A stretch of 64,000 bases of DNA, taken from contig NZ_JARGPK010000042.1 in assembly GCF_029212575.1 (NCBI RefSeq), positions 1 through 64,000 of the forward strand. Reading direction: 5' to 3'. A program made the position numbers and the translations under genes. Shown piece by piece: positions 4,510-64,000 of this stretch (its first letter is position 1; each line of letters begins with the position of its first letter). Source of the stretch: Antarcticimicrobium sp. (GTDB lineage Bacteria > Pseudomonadota > Alphaproteobacteria > Rhodobacterales > Rhodobacteraceae). The notes under the pieces are model-generated. The model was given only the letters and a program-made list of their open reading frames with translations, had not been told where the DNA came from and made no database searches.

Positions 4510-5271
4510 ATGACCCAGCCGCCCGCCTTTCACGAAGCTTCCGGTTCTCTCTTTTCCCCGGACGAGGCGCCGGAGATGCCGTTGCCGGCGGGGCGGCTGC
4601 CCTCATACATCCGCGATCACCGGCAACGATTGCGCGACCGGTTCATGACCGGCGGCGCCGGTGCGATGCCGGATTATGAATTGCTGGAGCTCTTGCTCTT
4701 CCGCTCGATCCCGCGGCGTGACGTGAAACCGCTGGCGCGCGCCCTGCTGGACCAGTTCGGCGATTTCAACCGCGTCCTCGCCGCCGCGCCCGAGCGGCTG
4801 GTCAAGGTTGACGGAATCGGCCCGTCGGTAATCGCCGACCTGAAGATCGTCGAGGCCGCCGCGCACCGGATGGCACGCGCCAAGGTGTTAAAGCGGCACG
4901 TGATTTCAAGCTGGGACGCGGTTCTGGATTATTGCCGCACCACGATGGCGCATCGGGATACGGAACAATTCCGCGTGCTTTACCTGGATACCAAGAACAC
5001 CTTGATCGCGGATGAGGAACAGGGACGCGGCACCGTGGATCACGTGCCCGTTTATCCGCGCGAAGTGGCCAAGCGCGCGCTGGAGTTGAACGCCTCGGCG
5101 CTGATCCTTGTGCACAACCACCCCTCGGGCGATCCCAGCCCGTCGGAGGCCGACATCCGCATGACCGAAAAGATCAACGCGGCCTGCGCCGCGCTGGGGA
5201 TCACGCTGCACGACCATCTGATCATCGGCAAGTCGCGCGAAATCAGTTTCCGGGCCGAGGGCCTTTTATAG
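4510..5271 (+). CDS. radC: RadC family protein (JAMM/MPN+ fold)
   Basis: A 253-residue RadC-like protein. The N-terminal half contains a helix-hairpin-helix region (about 85-110, VDGIGPSVIADLK) that suggests DNA contact. The C-terminal half is the RadC domain with the JAMM metalloprotease-like motif ILVHNHPSGDPSPSEAD. The cellular role of the family is unsettled; the historic DNA-repair annotation is not well supported. The ATG at 4510 has a poor ribosome-binding site; an in-frame ATG at about 4576 is an alternative, which would remove a non-conserved leader. It converges on the minus-strand gene ending at 5274, with 2 bp between them. Confidence 0.93.
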   Translation: MTQPPAFHEASGSLFSPDEAPEMPLPAGRLPSYIRDHRQRLRDRFMTGGAGAMPDYELLELLLFRSIPRRDVKPLARALLDQFGDFNRVLAAAPERLVKVDGIGPSVIADLKIVEAAAHRMARAKVLKRHVISSWDAVLDYCRTTMAHRDTEQFRVLYLDTKNTLIADEEQGRGTVDHVPVYPREVAKRALELNASALILVHNHPSGDPSPSEADIRMTEKINAACAALGITLHDHLIIGKSREISFRAEGLL

Positions 5272-54824: not shown

Positions 54825-55178
54825 ATGCGGTTTATCTGGGCGGGACTAGGGGCGATCTGTGTCGCCCTCGGCGTTGTCGGCGCCTTTCTGCCGCTGCTTC
54901 CCACCGTCCCCTTCCTGCTGCTCGCCACGTTTCTGTTCGCCAATTCCTCACCCAGGATGCACAACTGGATCGTCTCGCACCGGCATTTCGGCCCGATGAT
55001 CGAGGATTGGACCCGCTCCGGCGCCATCCGCCCGCGCGCGAAACGGCTGGCAACCCTGTCGATCGCCGCCGTTTTCGCAATCTCGCTGATCGCTGGGGTG
55101 CGCCCACTGATCCTCGGAGTTCAGGCGGTCATCCTTGGCTGTGTCCTGATTTTCATCTGGACCCGCCCTAACGGCTGA
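54825..55178 (+). CDS. DUF454 family inner-membrane protein (YbaN-like)
   Basis: A 117-residue protein with a DUF454 pattern: WAGLGAICVALGVVGAFLPLLPTVPFLLLATFLFA at the N-terminus, a cytosolic HRHFGPMIEDWTRSGAI segment and two further helices. Function unknown. It starts 3 bp after hemW, so it is likely the last gene of that transcript. Its end overlaps the convergent parB by 11 bp. Confidence 0.88.
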   Translation: MRFIWAGLGAICVALGVVGAFLPLLPTVPFLLLATFLFANSSPRMHNWIVSHRHFGPMIEDWTRSGAIRPRAKRLATLSIAAVFAISLIAGVRPLILGVQAVILGCVLIFIWTRPNG

Positions 55179-56067
55179 GCCGCCCGCAAAGATCGTCCAA
55201 TTGATCGAGCGTATCGTAGCGGATCGAGATGACGCCCGCCTCGCCGCCCGGCTTGTGGTCGATCGTCACCTTCATGCCCAACACCGCCGAAAGATCCCCC
55301 TCCAGCGCCTTGGTATCGGCATCCTTTTCCATCGCCTTTTTGGCCGCAGGTCTGGGTGCGGGGGCGTCGCCCTCCCCCCCCTGCTGTTTCTTGGCCAGCG
55401 CCTCGGTCGCCCGGACCGAAAGCCCGTCCCGCACAACCGCCTTGGCCAGGGTCGATGGGTTTTCCGAGGTGATCAACGCCCGTGCATGGCCCGCCGACAG
55501 ATCGCCGGACTTGACCAGGTCCTGCACATCCTCGGGCAAGGTCAGCAAACGCAGCAGGTTGGCGATGTGGCTGCGGCTCTTTCCCAGAGCCTCCGCCAGT
55601 TTTTCCTGCGTGTGGCCGAACCGTTCCATCAACTGCCGATACCCCGAGGCCTCTTCCATCGCGTTGAGGTCGGCGCGCTGGATGTTCTCGATGATGGCAA
55701 TTTCCAACACCTCGATATCGTCGAGATCCCGGATCAGGACGGGTATCTCGTGCAGCTGGGCTTTTTGCGCCGCGCGCCAGCGGCGTTCCCCGGCGACAAT
55801 CTCGTACCCGCCACCGGCGGCGGGACGCACGATCAACGGTTGAAGGATGCCCTTTTCCCGGACCGAGGCCGCCAGATCCGCCAGATCGTCGGGATCAAAA
55901 CGACGCCGCGGCTGGTTCGGGTTCGGCCTGATCTGTTCGATCGGCACCATTGTATCGGCGCGCCGCACCGATTGCTCGGCCGACGGGGCCGGCTCCAATG
56001 ACACATCCGCCATCAACGCGGAGAGGCCGCGCCCCAACCCGCGGGGTTTGTTTTTCTTTTCTGCCAC
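55168..56067 (-). CDS. parB: Chromosome partitioning protein ParB
   Basis: A 299-residue CTP-dependent clamp that loads at parS and spreads on origin-proximal DNA. The N-terminal KPRGLGRGLSALMADV is typical, the CTP-binding GERRWRAAQKA box is near residue 100, followed by ENIQRADLNAMEEA, and the helix-turn-helix at about 140-175 (KSRSHIANLLRLLTLP). The GTG start at 56067 has GGAGGAAAG upstream; a 16-codon extension is not family-like. It lies 19 bp after parA. Confidence 0.97.
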   Translation of the reverse strand: MAEKKNKPRGLGRGLSALMADVSLEPAPSAEQSVRRADTMVPIEQIRPNPNQPRRRFDPDDLADLAASVREKGILQPLIVRPAAGGGYEIVAGERRWRAAQKAQLHEIPVLIRDLDDIEVLEIAIIENIQRADLNAMEEASGYRQLMERFGHTQEKLAEALGKSRSHIANLLRLLTLPEDVQDLVKSGDLSAGHARALITSENPSTLAKAVVRDGLSVRATEALAKKQQGGEGDAPAPRPAAKKAMEKDADTKALEGDLSAVLGMKVTIDHKPGGEAGVISIRYDTLDQLDDLCGRLSR

Positions 56068-56086
56068 GGTCTTTCCTCCACGTCGC

Positions 56087-56896
56087 TCAGGCGGCGATCT
56101 TTTCGTGTTTTCCAATCAATTCCCGCGCCAGCGCCCGGTACGCGATCGCCCCCTGCGAGCCGGAATCATAGCTCAGAACCGGCAGCGCAAAGGACGGCGC
56201 CTCGCTGACCCGCACATTGCGCGGGATCATCGTCTTGAACACCAGGTCGCCAAGGTATTCGCGCGCATCCTGTTCCACCTGCTGCGACAGGTTGTTGCGC
56301 CGATCATACATGGTAAGGACCACGCCTTCGATCCGCAATTCGGGGTTCGCGGTCTGTCGGACCTCGCGGATCGTCAACATAAGCTGAGACAGCCCCTCCA
56401 GCGCGAAGAACTCGCTTTGCAGCGGCACCAGAACCGAATGCGCGGCGACCATGGCGTTGACCGTCAGCAGGTTCAGCGACGGCGGGCAGTCAATCAGCAC
56501 ATAATCCATCCCGAACGCATCCATCGCCGGCTGCCGCAAGGCATCATGCAGCAAAAAGCTCCGCTTTTCATTCGCCATCAGCTCGATATCGGCCGAGCTC
56601 AGGTCTACCGTCGCCGGCACGATCGACAGCCCCTCGATCGCGGTGGGCTGGATCACCTGGTCAAGCGGGACATCCTCGACCAGCAGCTCATAGGTTGTCA
56701 TGTCGCGGTCCGCGGCCTCGATCCCCAGCCCGGTGGAGGCGTTGCCCTGCGGGTCGATATCAACGACCAGCACCCGCTTGCCGCACTCCACCAGGGCGGC
56801 GGCAAGGTTGATCGCGGTCGTGGTCTTGCCCACGCCGCCCTTCTGATTGGTGACAGCGATGATTCTCGGCCCGTTAGGGCGGGACAGGTCAGTCAC
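56087..56896 (-). CDS. parA: Chromosome partitioning ATPase ParA (Soj)
   Basis: A 269-residue deviant Walker ATPase that moves ParB-parS complexes. The ATP loop NQKGGVGKTTTAINLAAAL begins near residue 17, followed by VVDIDPQGNASTGLG and the switch DCPPSLNLLTVNAM near 123. It starts with GTG, supported by GAAGGAG, and overlaps rsmG by 8 bp. ParA and ParB with the two parS sites form a complete segregation module. Confidence 0.98.
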   Translation of the reverse strand: MTDLSRPNGPRIIAVTNQKGGVGKTTTAINLAAALVECGKRVLVVDIDPQGNASTGLGIEAADRDMTTYELLVEDVPLDQVIQPTAIEGLSIVPATVDLSSADIELMANEKRSFLLHDALRQPAMDAFGMDYVLIDCPPSLNLLTVNAMVAAHSVLVPLQSEFFALEGLSQLMLTIREVRQTANPELRIEGVVLTMYDRRNNLSQQVEQDAREYLGDLVFKTMIPRNVRVSEAPSFALPVLSYDSGSQGAIAYRALARELIGKHEKIAA

Positions 56897-57509
56897 GCGA
56901 CACTCCTTCGACTTTCAAGATTACCGCTTCGGGGTCGGTGATACTGGTAATCGGCTGCGCCTTGAATTTCCATCGTTGCCGCGCGGAATCCAGTTCTTTT
57001 TGCCAGGTGACACCTTTGGGAAACAGCGCCACGCCGGATCGATTCAGATGCCGGTCCGCAAACCCGAGCAGCGTCTCCAGATCCGCGAGCGCCCGGGCTG
57101 AAAGAATGTCCGCCTGTTGCGGCTCCACCGCCTCGATTCGCTCGGCGATTATGGTACAGGTGGCCCCTGTCTCACGCGCCGCGGCGCGGAGAAAGGCGGA
57201 TTTTCTTTGGTCGCTTTCGATCATCGTCACGCGCAGGTTCGGCGCCGCATCGGCGGCGAGGATGGCAACGATCAGCCCGGGAAAGCCCCCTCCGCTGCCG
57301 AGGTCGACCCAATGCCCTTCGGGCGCCACGCAATCGAACAGCTGGACCGAATCGGCGATGTGTCGGGTCCAGAGGTCCGAAAGACTGTTGCGGGACACCA
57401 GGTTGATACGCGGGTTCCATTTTTCCAAAAGCGCGGCAAAGCTTGAAAGCCGGTCCAATGTTTCACGTGAAACATTCAACCCCGGCGGCATCGACCCCTG
57501 CCCGCTCAT
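56889..57509 (-). CDS. rsmG: 16S rRNA (guanine527-N7)-methyltransferase RsmG
   Basis: A 206-residue SAM enzyme (GidB). Motif I is [18 protein letters not shown] near residue 66, preceded by [10 protein letters not shown] near 32. An N-terminal segment NVSRETL at about 12-18 is encoded by a perfect parS site, so the codons are constrained by ParB binding. It overlaps mnmG by 4 bp upstream and parA by 8 bp downstream. Confidence 0.97.
57459..57474. promoter_or_regulatory. parS site 1, inside rsmG
   Basis: TGTTTCACGTGAAACA, a perfect match to the bacterial parS consensus. The perfect dyad extends to 20 bp (57457-57476). It lies within rsmG codons and 5.1 kb from the proposed origin. Confidence 0.97.
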
Positions 57510-59383
57510 GCGCGGCGCGCCTCGTCGCCGCGCCGCAACCGCGACAGCAACAGGGCAAGAGCCGCCGGCGTCATCCCGTCGATCCGTCCCGCCTGGGCCA
57601 GGTTTGCGGGTCTTGCCCGATCCAACTTTGACTTCAGCTCGTTCGACAGCCCCTCGATCGCGCTGTAATCGAACCCCTCGGGAATCTCCCGCGTCTCGTC
57701 GCGCCGTAACGCCTCGATGTCCTTTTTCTGGCGCTCTATGTAGTTCACGTAGAGCGCCTCGCGCTCCAACTGGCGGCGACTGTCCGCGTCCACCCCGGCA
57801 AGATCGCTGTCGAGCGGCAGGAGATCCTCGAAATCCACGTCCGGAAAGGCCAGGATCGCCATCGCCGTTCGGCGGGATCCGTCCTGATTCACCCTGATCC
57901 CGGCTTCGGCAACCTCCCTCGTGGTATAGCCGCGCCCGGTCAGCATGTCGCGGGCCGTGTCCAGCCGCTCCATCTTCTGCCCGAACGCCGCCTCCCGGTC
58001 CTGGCCGATACAGCCGATCTCCAGCCCCAGCGGCGTCAGCCTCTGGTCGGCGTTATCCGCGCGCAGCGACAAGCGGAACTCGGCGCGCGAGGTGAACATG
58101 CGATAGGGCTCAGTAACCCCGCGCGTGGTGAGATCGTCGATCATCACGCCGATGTAGCTGTCCGACCGGTGAAATCCGACCGGCGCGCGCCCCTGCGCCG
58201 CGCGGGCCGCGTTCAGCCCCGCCACCAGGCCCTGCGCCGCCGCTTCCTCATATCCCGTGGTACCGTTGATCTGCCCGGCGAGGTAGAGGCCCGGCACATC
58301 CCTGACCGCCAGCTCCTGCGTCAAGGCGCGCGGATCGACGTAATCGTACTCGATCGCATAGCCCGGTTGCAGGATCACCGCGTTTTCCAACCCGGCGATG
58401 GACTGCACGTACTCTTCCTGCACGTCCTCGGGGAGCGAGGTCGAAATCCCGTTGGGATAGACCGTGTGGTCGCTCACCCCCTCTGGCTCGAGAAAGATCT
58501 GATGCGAGTCCTTTTCGCCGAACCGCACGATCTTGTCCTCGATCGAGGGGCAATAGCGCGGCCCGACCCCCTCGATATGCCCCCCATACATCGCCGAACG
58601 CGACAGATTCCGCTCGATGATCTCATGTGTCCTGGGGTTTGTATGGGTGATGCCGCAGGAAATTTGTGGCGCCTGAACCCCCCGCGACAGAAAGGAAAAC
58701 AGAACCGGATCCTCGTCACCCGGCTGCATCTCCAACCCGTCCCAGGCGATGGTGCGCCCGTCGAGTCGCGGTGGCGTGCCCGTCTTCAGCCGCCCCAGCG
58801 GCAGGTCAAAGGCGTCGATCCGTTCCGCCAGCTTGACCGAGGGGCGGTCTCCCATACGTCCGCCGGGGCGGGACACATCCCCGATATGGATCACACCGCG
58901 CAGGAATGTCCCCGAGGTCAGGACAACCGCGCTGGCCGGAACCTCGGACCCATCCGCCAGGATGACGCCGCAAACCCGGTCCTTTTGCATCAGGAAATCT
59001 GTCGCCTCGCCTTCGATGATGGTCAGGCCCGGCCGCGCCTCGGTCTCTGCCAGCATCGCGGTACGATAGATCGCCCGGTCCGCCTGCGCGCGCGGCCCCT
59101 GCACCGCCGGGCCTTTGCGGCGGTTCAACAGCCGAAATTGGATACCCGCCCGGTCCGCGACACGGCCCATCACGCCGTCCATTGCGTCGATCTCCCGGAC
59201 CAGGTGCCCTTTCCCCAACCCCCCGATCGCAGGGTTGCAGGACATGACCCCGATTCCGGCGCGCGTCAGCGTAACCAGCGCCACCTGCGCGCCAAGACGC
59301 GCCGCCGCATGGGCCGCCTCGGCCCCCGCATGGCCGCCGCCGATAACGATCACATCGTACTGCGAATGTTTCACGTGAAACAC
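57506..59383 (-). CDS. mnmG: tRNA uridine-5-carboxymethylaminomethyl modification enzyme MnmG
   Basis: A 625-residue FAD enzyme (GidA) that with MnmE modifies U34 of several tRNAs. The FAD loop [17 protein letters not shown] is near residue 10, [21 protein letters not shown] near 50, and [11 protein letters not shown] near 158. The protein begins MFHVKHS, translated from a parS site that covers the start codon region. It ends in the overlap with rsmG and follows mnmE by 3 bp. Confidence 0.99.
59367..59382. promoter_or_regulatory. parS site 2, at the start of mnmG
   Basis: TGTTTCACGTGAAACA, identical to site 1, overlapping the mnmG start codon region (ATG at 59383). It is 3.2 kb from the proposed origin. 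No further copy was found in the window. Confidence 0.97.
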
Positions 59384-60701: not shown

Positions 60702-61973
60702 TCAGGTGTTCATGGAATCGAAGAACTCGGAGTTCGTCTTGGTCTGCTTGAGCTTCGACAGCAGGAATTCAATGGCGTCGGTGGTGCCCATCGGGTTCAG
60801 GATACGACGCAGGACAAAGGTTTTCTGCAGATCGCCCTTGTCGATCAGCAGGTCCTCTTTTCTTGTGCCGGATTTCAGGATGTCGATGGCCGGGAACACA
60901 CGCTTGTCCGCGATCTTGCGATCCAGAACCAGCTCGGAGTTGCCGGTACCCTTGAACTCTTCGAAGATCACCTCGTCCATCCGGCTGCCGGTGTCGATCA
61001 GCGCCGTGGCGATGATGGTGAGCGATCCACCCTCTTCGATGTTCCGCGCGGCACCAAAGAACCGTTTCGGCCGCTGCAGCGCATTCGCATCCACACCACC
61101 GGTCAGAACCTTGCCCGAGGAGGGCACCACGGTATTAAAGGCCCTACCAAGTCTTGTGATCGAATCCAGAAGTATAACAACATCTCGCTTATGCTCGACC
61201 AGACGCTTGGCCTTTTCGATCACCATTTCCGACACCGCAACGTGCCGCGTCGCCGGTTCGTCGAAGGTCGAAGAAACAACCTCGCCCTTGACCGAGCGCT
61301 GCATGTCGGTCACCTCCTCCGGCCGCTCGTCGATCAGCAGCACGATGAGGTAGCATTCCGGATGGTTCTTTTCGATCGAGTTGGCAATGTTCTGCAGAAT
61401 CACCGTCTTACCGGTCCGCGGCGGCGCCACGATCAGCGACCGCTGGCCCTTGCCGATCGGGGCGACCAGGTCGATGATCCGTGCGGTCCGGTCCTTGATC
61501 GTCGGATCCTCGACCTCCATCTTCAACCGTTCATCGGGATAAAGTGGCGTTAGGTTGTCGAATGCGATCTTGTGGCGGGCCTTCTCGGGGTCTTCAAAGT
61601 TGATCGTGGTGACATTGGTCAGCGCGAAGTACCGCTCATTGTCCAGCGGCGCCTTCATCTGCCCGTCCACGGTATCGCCGGTGCGCAGGCTGTATTGCCG
61701 GATCATCTCGGGCGACACATAGATGTCATCCGGACCGGGAAGATAGTTCGCCTCGGGCGAGCGCAGGAAACCGAACCCATCCTGCAACACCTCGAGCACA
61801 CCATCGCCAAAAATCTCCCATCCCTCGTCCGCGCGTTCGCGCAGGATCTGGAACATCATCTCGCCCTTGCGCATGGTCGAGGCGTTCTCGATCTCCAGGT
61901 CCTCGGCCATGGACAGAAGGTCCTTGGGGCTTTTTGCCTTGAGATCGGACAGGGTGAGGGATTCGACGGTCAT
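60702..61973 (-). CDS. rho: Transcription termination factor Rho
   Basis: A 423-residue hexameric RNA helicase that ends transcription. The N-terminal RNA-binding part has [23 protein letters not shown] near residue 62, the Walker [15 protein letters not shown] near 180, Walker B and [12 protein letters not shown] near 265, and the C-terminal RNA loop. The ATG at 61973 is close to the family start. It lies 28 bp before mnmE, so it could share the hemJ-rho-mnmE direction of transcription away from the origin. Confidence 0.99.
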
Positions 61974-62098
61974 GATGATACGGCCCTTGGCCCCCGAATG
62001 ATCGCGGGGCACTTTTCAAATGGACAGGAAGAGACATCGCCCGGACGGGCGCGTTGCCGGATTACATAATGAAGCGGCGTGACCGAGTCAAATCCCGA

Positions 62099-62548
62099 TC
62101 AGAACTTCACAACCACCGAGATCACGATCACCACCATCAACAGTGTCGGGACCTCGTTCATCATGCGAAATTGCCGCCCGCTCAGCTTGTTCCGGCCGGC
62201 AAGGAAATCCTTGCGGCGCCAATCCAGCCAGAAATGAAACCAGGTCATCGCAATCACCGCCGCCCCCTTGGTCCAGGGCCAGATCCAGCTCCAGTCGACG
62301 ATCCCAGGTGTTACCACCAGCAAAAGCCCCATGATCCAGGTCGCGATCATCGCGGGATGCATGATGTAGCGAAACAGCTTTTCCTCCATCACCAGGAAGA
62401 TCGCCGGCGCATCGGTGACCGACTGCGCCTTTTCTATGTGATAGACAAACAGCCTCGGCAGGTAGAACAGCCCGGCCATCCAGGACAGCACGGCCATGAT
62501 ATGAATCGACTTGGTCCAAGGGTACAGCGTGATCAACAGGTCGGACAT
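62099..62548 (-). CDS. hemJ: Protoporphyrinogen IX oxidase HemJ
   Basis: A 149-residue inner-membrane enzyme for the penultimate step of haem synthesis, used in place of HemG/HemY. Four hydrophobic helices are visible; the conserved histidine is in KSIHIMAVLSWMAGLFYLPR near residue 16, and the C-terminus QFRMMNEVPTLLMVVIVI is diagnostic of UPF0093. Together with hemH and hemW it gives three haem-related genes in the window. It is the leftmost-facing gene beside the origin region. Confidence 0.96.
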   Translation of the reverse strand: MSDLLITLYPWTKSIHIMAVLSWMAGLFYLPRLFVYHIEKAQSVTDAPAIFLVMEEKLFRYIMHPAMIATWIMGLLLVVTPGIVDWSWIWPWTKGAAVIAMTWFHFWLDWRRKDFLAGRNKLSGRQFRMMNEVPTLLMVVIVISVVVKF

Positions 62549-62952
62549 TTGGTTTCCCGCGCAGTTTCCTCTCTCCTAATAATAAGAAAGAAAAGAAGAA
62601 AGGATGATGATGAGGTAGGGACGCCGGAAACGGTGGATTATCGTCTTGTCCCGGATGTTGTCCACCATGGGGACAGCTTGGGACAGTTTCCCGCGATTTT
62701 CTGACAGACGGCGGGAATTTAAATATAAATCAATATCTTAAAATGAATACGGCGCGGTAACCTTTGGGGATAACTCCGGGAGAAATCCAGAGAACAGGGG
62801 TTCTCCCGTGCGCATGGGTTATCCTTATCCAGCCGGGAGGATTTCGGCACGGACGGGAACAAGTCGCCCGAAATCATGGGGTCTTGCACCCACAGACGGA
62901 TAACCTAGAAACCATCAGGGATCGTCCGCCCCCCGATACCGGAGTTTTCCAC
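62549..62952. other. oriC: Probable chromosomal replication origin (oriC)
   Basis: A 404-bp non-coding interval, the longest in the window, between divergent hemJ and maf. It contains a 34-bp stretch with only three G/C (62716-62749), a candidate unwinding element. DnaA-box-like 9-mers (reference TTATCCACA) are TTGTCCACC 62658-62666 (7/9), TTATCCCCA on the minus strand at 62765-62773 (8/9), TTATCCTTA 62819-62827 (7/9), TTATCCAGC 62825-62833 (7/9) and TTTTCCACA 62945-62953 (8/9, touching the maf start). A purine-rich tract lies at 62575-62617. Gene order with parAB, rsmG, mnmG, mnmE, rho, maf and aroE matches alphaproteobacterial origin regions. dnaA is not in the window. Confidence 0.85.
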
Positions 62953-63552
62953 ATGTCTGTCCCGATCATTCTTGCCTCTGGCTCCGAGGTCCGCGCCACC
63001 CTGCTTCGCAAAGCCGGGGTGCAGGTCGAGGCGATTTCCCCGCGCATCGACGAGGATGCGGTCAAGGCTGCGCTGATGTCCGAGGCCGCCGCGCCGCGCG
63101 ACATCGCCGACACGCTGGCCGAACTCAAGGCCCGCAAGATCAGCGAACGGATGCCCGGCGCCATGGTGATCGGTTGCGATCAGGTGCTTGATTTCGAGGG
63201 ATCACTGCTGTCGAAACCGGAAACCCCCGAAGAGGCGCTGGATCAGTTGCGCCGGATGCGCGGCAGGCGGCACAAGCTGCTGTCGGCGGCGGTGATCTGT
63301 CGCGACGGGCGGCCCGAATGGCGTCACGTCGGCCAGGTTCGCCTGACCATGCGCGAGGCAAGCGATTCCTATCTGCAGGGTTACGTCGCCCGCAACTGGG
63401 ACAGCATCCGCCACTCGGTCGGGGCATACAAGCTCGAGGAAGAGGGGGTGCGCCTGTTCACCGCCATTGACGGGGATTACTTTACGGTTTTGGGTATGCC
63501 ATTGTTGGAATTGCTCAATTTCCTGATGCTTCGGGGGGAGATAGACGCATGA
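62953..63552 (+). CDS. maf: Maf-like nucleotide pyrophosphatase
   Basis: A 199-residue nucleoside triphosphate pyrophosphatase of the Maf/HAM1 fold, which cleaves dTTP/UTP or modified nucleotides. LASGSEVRATLLRKAGV at the start, IDED near residue 35 and CDQVLDFEG near 76 are conserved. The ATG at 62953 overlaps the last DnaA-like box. Rightward transcription leads away from the origin. Sub-group (YhdE or YceF) is not decided. aroE overlaps its stop by 4 bp. Confidence 0.95.
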   Translation: MSVPIILASGSEVRATLLRKAGVQVEAISPRIDEDAVKAALMSEAAAPRDIADTLAELKARKISERMPGAMVIGCDQVLDFEGSLLSKPETPEEALDQLRRMRGRRHKLLSAAVICRDGRPEWRHVGQVRLTMREASDSYLQGYVARNWDSIRHSVGAYKLEEEGVRLFTAIDGDYFTVLGMPLLELLNFLMLRGEIDA

Positions 63553-64000
63553 CGGATACGCGGATTCCGCTGGCGGGGGTGATCGGCACCCCCATTGCGC
63601 ATTCAAAATCGCCGCGCCTGCACCGGCATTGGCTCACGACCTACGGGATCGCGGGGCATTACATCCCGATGGAGGTCCGCGCCGAGGATCTGGAACAGGT
63701 GCTCGGGGCCCTGCCGAAGATGGGGTTCGTCGGCATCAACGTCACGATTCCGCACAAGGAAAAGGTGATCATGCTGGCGGATCAGGTCACCGACCGGGCC
63801 ACGCTGATCGGGGCGGCAAACACGTTGATCTTCCGGCCCGACGGCAGCATTCACGCCGATAACACCGATGGCTACGGATTCATGGAAAACCTCCGTCGTG
63901 GCGCGCCGGGATGGGATCCGGCCGCCGGGCCCGCGGCGGTGCTTGGGGCGGGCGGTGCGGCCCGCGCCGTGATCTCGGCGCTGATCGACGCAGGTGTGCC
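63549..64000 (+). CDS. aroE: Shikimate dehydrogenase (5' part, runs off the window)
   Basis: The first 150 residues of the NADP-dependent shikimate dehydrogenase. The substrate-binding serines are in GTPIAHSKSPRLH near residue 15, the catalytic lysine is in NVTIPHKEK near 65, NTDGYGF near 105 is conserved, and the dinucleotide loop AAVLGAGGAARAV is visible near 130. The ATG overlaps maf (ATGA). The C-terminal part is outside the window. Confidence 0.96.
   Translation, partial: MTDTRIPLAGVIGTPIAHSKSPRLHRHWLTTYGIAGHYIPMEVRAEDLEQVLGALPKMGFVGINVTIPHKEKVIMLADQVTDRATLIGAANTLIFRPDGSIHADNTDGYGFMENLRRGAPGWDPAAGPAAVLGAGGAARAVISALIDAGV

Follow-up and report, generated by a model that had tools for sequence, protein, structure and literature searches.

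In E. coli, oriC is ordered as an unwinding element, a DnaA box, an IHF site and further boxes.

For the groups closer to the genome studied here, what is said below refers to the accessible portions of the cited papers. According to DoriC, Rhodobacteraceae have a conserved oriC position next to maf (PMC4793288; Ketogulonicigenium vulgare), and a study that assigned oriC in 101 chromosomes of the family used proximity to parAB as one of its criteria (PMC6699656). In an analysis of alphaproteobacterial genomes, parAB lay near ori in almost every case, though there were exceptions (PMC8116508). Cumulative GC skew, together with partition loci, served to locate the origin regions of R. sphaeroides (PMC6315104); R. 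sphaeroides 2.4.1 is also among the strains tested in another study, in the accessible text of which an origin coordinate was not found (PMC13342612). The Caulobacter crescentus origin, Cori, contains an AT-rich stretch, DnaA boxes and one IHF site (PMC1914354). In the literature on Rhodobacterales, no paper was found whose accessible main text gives the layout of boxes, IHF-type site and repeats reported below.

The window analysed, 64,000 nucleotides long, comprises positions 1-64000 of contig C69 (259,244 bp), part of a 4.14-Mb draft genome of 96 contigs. A preliminary description of this DNA had placed the chromosomal origin in a 404-bp non-coding gap between hemJ and maf. The gap is indeed present at positions 62549-62952 and is bounded by divergent genes: hemJ (UPF0093; 62099-62548, minus strand, start at 62548, PF03653 match) on the left and maf (62953-63552, plus strand, ATG at 62953, PF02545 match), followed by aroE, on the right. 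Among named sequences, hemJ has its closest matches in Antarcticimicrobium (87 and 83% identity), followed mostly by Ruegeria, which suggests that the DNA comes from a Rhodobacteraceae of the Roseobacter type. The strand reversal that had been pointed out is equally clear, with parB, parA, gidB, gidA, mnmE, rho and hemJ on the minus strand, and maf and aroE on the plus strand. The products of parA and parB (55168-56896, minus) have Pfam ParA-type AAA and ParB domains. Two perfect parS sites had been reported 3-5 kb from the gap; both are exact copies of TGTTTCACGTGAAACA (strandless), one at 59367-59382, within the 5' end of the gidA coding sequence, and the other at 57459-57474, within the 5' end of the gidB coding sequence, and they are the only parS matches in the genome at one mismatch or fewer.

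The gap has the features of the maf-adjacent oriC of Rhodobacteraceae, being intergenic, beside maf, and near parAB and parS. It is like the Ori-Finder/DoriC origins of the family in adjoining maf (PMC4793288) and in lying near parAB (PMC6699656), and differs from those predictions in that the source genome is a draft. Given a synteny that is kept in 80 of 90 family loci, box enrichment at fixed positions, the polarity of relatives' chromosomes, and the maf-adjacent oriC in print (in the accessible part of PMC4793288), we consider that the 404-bp hemJ-maf gap is, in all likelihood, the chromosomal oriC, as the preliminary description had proposed. The origin is ordinary in kind, at a site already predicted for the family, and its conserved anatomy is a useful addition.

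Cori, which is located between hemE and COG1806, shares with the gap the AT-rich stretch, the boxes, an IHF-type site (predicted here) and a homologous gene neighbourhood, but its flanks are not matched. The sole hemE match in our genome is on contig C13, not C69, and a PF03618 (kinase-regulator) gene had no match in the whole genome in a search that matched 3 of 14 control genomes. The absence of these two neighbours, and the shortened layout deduced from it, had therefore been described correctly; this truly shortened layout is no oddity, being that of the majority of the family. The Cori CtrA site, TTAAN7TTAA, has no exact copy in the gap and one place with a single mismatch; exact copies were seen in 7 of the 75 family gaps described below versus 1.0 in shuffles. 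The proximal box is of the TAATCCAC type, unlike the Cori G-box with its T-to-G change (accessible text of PMC4468827). The order of elements is the same as in E. coli oriC, but gene context and box sequences are unlike those of E. coli, and the gap is without an exact box.

DnaA-box-like sites were defined as 9-mers with up to two mismatches to TTATCCACA. The gap holds five such sites, the number that had been noted, on both strands: they are at 62632-62640 (minus; GGTGGATTA = TAATCCACC, two mismatches, adjoining the repeat described below), 62658-62666 (plus; TTGTCCACC, two mismatches), 62765-62773 (minus; TTATCCCCA, one mismatch) and, as two overlapping sites starting at 62819 and 62825 (both plus), at 62819-62833 (TTATCCTTATCC). 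A sixth site, TTTTCCACA, is at 62945-62953 (plus) and ends on the first base (A) of the maf start codon. The interval 62549-62955 thus holds six boxes, whereas 2000 dinucleotide shuffles averaged 1.16 and a single shuffle had as many as six. Exact TTATCCACA is absent from the gap, where only the site at 62765 is within one mismatch; genome-wide there are seven exact copies, on seven contigs other than C69. Scans for box clusters covered contig C69, the dnaA contig C31 and the hemE locus. In the 410-bp scan of the whole of C69, the gap tied for the highest box count with one window at 4923, which was rejected as an alternative origin since it sits in coding sequence (radC, called by eye). The dnaA and hemE sites were rejected as well: the 58-kb contig C31 holds at most three boxes per 410 bp, and the 4-kb hemE locus at most one.

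Conservation was followed in a family set of approximately one genome per genus, in which hemJ was matched in 103 of 120 genomes searched. Ninety loci were kept, the 13 dropped being 11 weak best matches (E above 1e-8), one locus at a contig edge (G095) and one that was split (G102). The hemJ and maf genes are divergent in 80 of the 90, and 75 of these loci have a gap of 347-480 bp between the two genes. All motif counts refer to these 75 gaps; left out were a gap of 175 bp and four of about 1.2 kb, in which a PF03618 kinase-regulator gene is located between the gap and maf (4 of the 80 divergent loci). In eight of the remaining ten loci, rho and hemJ are seen but maf is not within reach; another has aroE directly, and the last only hemJ. 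In three of the eight (L171, L182 and L186), hemE (PF01208) adjoins hemJ on the origin side, and in L171 the purine-rich/GTTGTTGTAG module comes after hemE (by eye). Where genes are inserted, the origin module keeps its place next to hemJ or, in L171, next to hemE. These arrangements would be explained most simply by losses from an ancestral order hemJ-hemE-origin-PF03618-maf. Among 80 named loci, hemJ-maf was found in 78, the remaining two reaching a contig end on the maf side, and exactly two exact parS sites were found in the fetched stretch in 69.

The 75 gaps contain 190 boxes within one mismatch, distributed over 69 gaps, versus 6.0 in shuffles, and 459 boxes within two mismatches versus 97 in shuffles. 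On a relative scale of 0-400, minus-strand boxes at 60-100 are followed by plus-strand boxes at 80-120, minus-strand boxes at 120-160, the IHF-type site at 160-200, minus-strand boxes at 200-220, and plus-strand boxes at 240-280 and 340-400. Box 62632 (minus) of the window coincides with the family minus-strand peak at the same relative position, box 62658 (plus) falls in the plus-strand peak at 100-120, and box 62765 matches the minus-strand peak at 200-220, which comprises 44 boxes. The pattern TTATCCTTNTCC, which corresponds in the window to the TTATCCTTATCC element at 62819-62833, is present in 27 of 75 gaps versus 0.8 in shuffles, and GATGATG occurs 69 times versus 4.9. The enrichment of these two patterns, and that of WWWCAN5TTR given below, is partly circular because all three were picked after viewing the alignment. 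No enrichment was found over the 75 gaps for GANTC (272 versus 251 in shuffles).

The 34-bp A+T block with three G/C that had been noted in the gap (62716-62749, strandless; 31 of 34 positions A/T) is the only 34-mer with at least 31 A/T in the entire contig C69, and it contains the conserved IHF-type site. This predicted site, AATCAATATCTTA at 62728-62740 (plus), is an exact fit to both WATCAN5WTR, the published alpha IHF consensus (PMC1914354, accessible text), and WATCAAN4TTR. At the same place and on the same strand, WWWCAN5TTR was found in 44 of 75 gaps (4.0 in local shuffles) and the stricter WATCAN5WTR in 15 (2.5 in local shuffles), while exact WATCAAN4TTR by itself is weak (8 versus 1.8 in shuffles). 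Of 34 pairs of an IHF-type site and the box that follows it, 22 are spaced 35-38 bp apart and eight 26-29 bp apart, two classes that differ by one helical turn; in the window the distance is 37 bp. An IHF-alpha gene is present in the genome (match above the TIGR00987 cut-off). A weak IHF/HU-family match with an internal stop was seen at positions 162896-163171 of C69.

On the hemJ side of the gap, a purine/A-rich block that is conserved in alignments (62576-62602, plus) adjoins a DnaA-trio-like element, in which a GATGATGATG repeat is followed by GTAGG (62603-62619, plus); GTAGG is invariant in an 8-way alignment. The TAG at 62616-62618 lies 13 bp from box 62632; where origins with DnaA-trios were surveyed, spacers of this length were the most frequent (PMC8287927; DnaA-trios are also described in PMC10721633 and PMC10225481; accessible portions of all three). 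With the Bacillus subtilis basal unwinding system (BUS), the window shares an oriented box, the 13-bp spacer, a 3'-GAT-5' triplet nearest the box and trinucleotide repeats beyond. It differs in that only one proximal box was found, and in that the repeats farther out are 5'-GAT-3' and do not keep the register of the first 3'-GAT-5' triplet (spacer 13). When trios were called as at least three 3'-NAN-5' near a DnaA box, the window had five, at a spacer of 17; under the lax published criterion, trios were present in 45 of 75 gaps versus 23.7 of 75 after shuffling of the upstream segment. The shift in register and the frequency of trios after shuffling count against an unwinding role here, but we favour the left purine-rich block beside hemJ, with its GATGATG repeats, as the probable unwinding element.

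The preliminary description had implied an unwinding role, within the same origin, for the A+T block at 62716-62749. By stability, calculated with nearest-neighbour values, that block is in the window the least stable 30-mer (-27.7 kcal/mol; left block, -31.4 kcal/mol), and in 33 of 75 gaps the start of the least stable 30-mer falls at relative positions 120-179; the left block is less stable than the middle one in 39 of 75, which is about even. The A+T block, however, contains the conserved IHF-type site, whereas the left block, as in published BUS layouts, has its trinucleotide repeat at a distance of 13 bp from a box in the proper orientation. The A+T block itself was described correctly, but we consider the unwinding function implied for it less likely than that of the left block.

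The cumulative GC skew of the whole chromosome had been expected to reach its minimum within a few kilobases of the gap. This was not the case on contig C69, where the minimum is at 242,645 because the skew on the maf side stays near zero or slightly negative. From 15 kb to the gap, the skew is mostly about -0.04 to -0.11; right of the gap, along the maf arm (62,953-259,244), it scatters for about 200 kb around zero or slightly below, the latter being the wrong sign, and two maf-side samples of one relative, G104, are also wrong-signed. A recent inversion beside the origin could possibly explain the neutral maf arm of C69. Skewed 8-mers were sought in samples of another relative, G013; none was above threshold, and therefore GGGNAGGG, the E. 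coli KOPS octamer, was used. Its plus/minus counts on C69 are 0/4 left of the gap and 29/19 right of it.

Polarity was also followed along six relatives' chromosomes, the longest contigs of genomes of 1-5 contigs, which were chosen among long-contig ones and assumed to be whole and circular. Evenly spaced 20-kb stretches were sampled, 20 in G104 and G013, and 10 in G003, G055, G034 and G101. The best GC-skew half-split was at the locus in four of the six (G013, G003, G055 and G101). In G104 it was one sample (ca. 195 kb) off on the maf side, and a split at the gap was reached by 0.0011 of permutations; in G034, GC skew was uninformative. The GGGNAGGG majority reverses between halves in all six chromosomes, with plus/minus counts per half of 69/13 and 24/59 (G104), 38/7 and 5/30 (G013), 18/4 and 11/19 (G003), 13/2 and 3/10 (G055), 20/7 and 6/31 (G034), and 12/0 and 2/13 (G101). 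Single samples next to the locus had a wrong or neutral sign in five relatives; the exceptions were the last two in G104, the last in G003 (skew 0.001, octamer 6/1) and in G101 (0.019), the first in G055 (-0.007), and several in G034. The polarity switch is thus located near the locus to ca. 100-220 kb in relatives, and the fine position of the origin rests on the conserved anatomy. In a 5-kb skew test, right was above left in all 74 loci long enough (of 78), a result that is confounded by gene strand and was not relied on.

The position of the C69 skew minimum counts against oriC, as do the skew exceptions among the relatives, the absence of an exact DnaA box and the ten of 90 loci without hemJ-maf adjacency, and the case for oriC is wholly sequence-based. 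If the gap were only the divergent hemJ/maf promoter region, its boxes would serve transcriptional control and the origin would be elsewhere, as is the C69 skew minimum; divergent genes do require promoters, and one sigma-70-like match was found at 62664-62637 (minus; 0.6 expected). Ordered boxes together with an IHF-type site over 75 gaps would nevertheless be unexpected for a promoter, as would a polarity reversal along relatives' chromosomes, and the module is kept while its flanks change, with hemE or a PF03618 gene intervening, or with maf not detected in L139. We therefore regard a mere promoter region as highly improbable. It is also very doubtful that replication really starts as much as 200-300 kb off on the maf side, the hemJ-maf gap being, in this sub-lineage, an origin that is cryptic or no longer in use. 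The skew-neutral maf side of C69 would fit such a displacement, as would G104, where the sign of the GC skew is wrong in the two closest maf-side samples and the best split is displaced by one sample in that direction, but a local inversion next to the origin would look alike. Furthermore, GGGNAGGG leans as expected on C69, the only other six-box window of that contig is in coding sequence, and both parS sites are at the gap.

With the gap taken as oriC, the location, conservation, ordered boxes, IHF-type site and polarity switch near the locus in relatives are what we observed, while every binding, bending and melting step of origin firing is what we infer from them. DnaA on the oriented boxes would oligomerise from box 62632 into the adjacent repeat-bearing A-/purine-rich block (ca. 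62576-62618), which the oligomer would then melt. IHF at 62728 may bend the DNA, allowing the right-hand boxes (62765, 62819-62833 and 62945) to join the complex. Two forks would then move away from each other, and the new origins would be segregated by ParB bound at both parS sites. We tentatively suggest that Rhodobacterales origins (ca. 74 sampled genera) may share one orisome plan, kept despite loss or insertion of flanking genes: a 5'-GAT-repeat unwinding element (a register-shifted DnaA-trio variant), a proximal box whose sequence is altered, and a bend by IHF at either of two distances from the box that follows (ca. 37 or 27 bp), which differ by one helical turn. With the likely origin of this genome fixed, its replichores can be oriented, which helps interpret gene dosage. 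The family-wide footprint of constrained bases makes the unwinding step directly testable in those Alphaproteobacteria that lack the usual neighbours and the CtrA sites of Cori.

Several minor observations were made along the way. Two records, L062 (titled Nocardioides marinus) and L123 (uncultured Rhizobium), carry a Rhodobacteraceae-type hemJ locus and are probably mislabelled or contaminated assemblies. In L139, maf was not detected in the locus and aroE directly adjoins the origin module; in L135, the computed hemJ-maf gap is only 175 bp, in very A/T-rich DNA. A search of positions 61500-64000 against Rfam gave nothing at gathering score. Four terminator-like sites were found in 62000-63300 versus 1.3 expected; three of them are stem-loops inside the gap, at 62679-62693, 62805-62818 and 62917-62933. 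Finally, a tandem GGGACAGCTT/GGGACAGTTT repeat, with its units 10 bp apart, occupies positions 62670-62689, between box 62658 and the A/T block.
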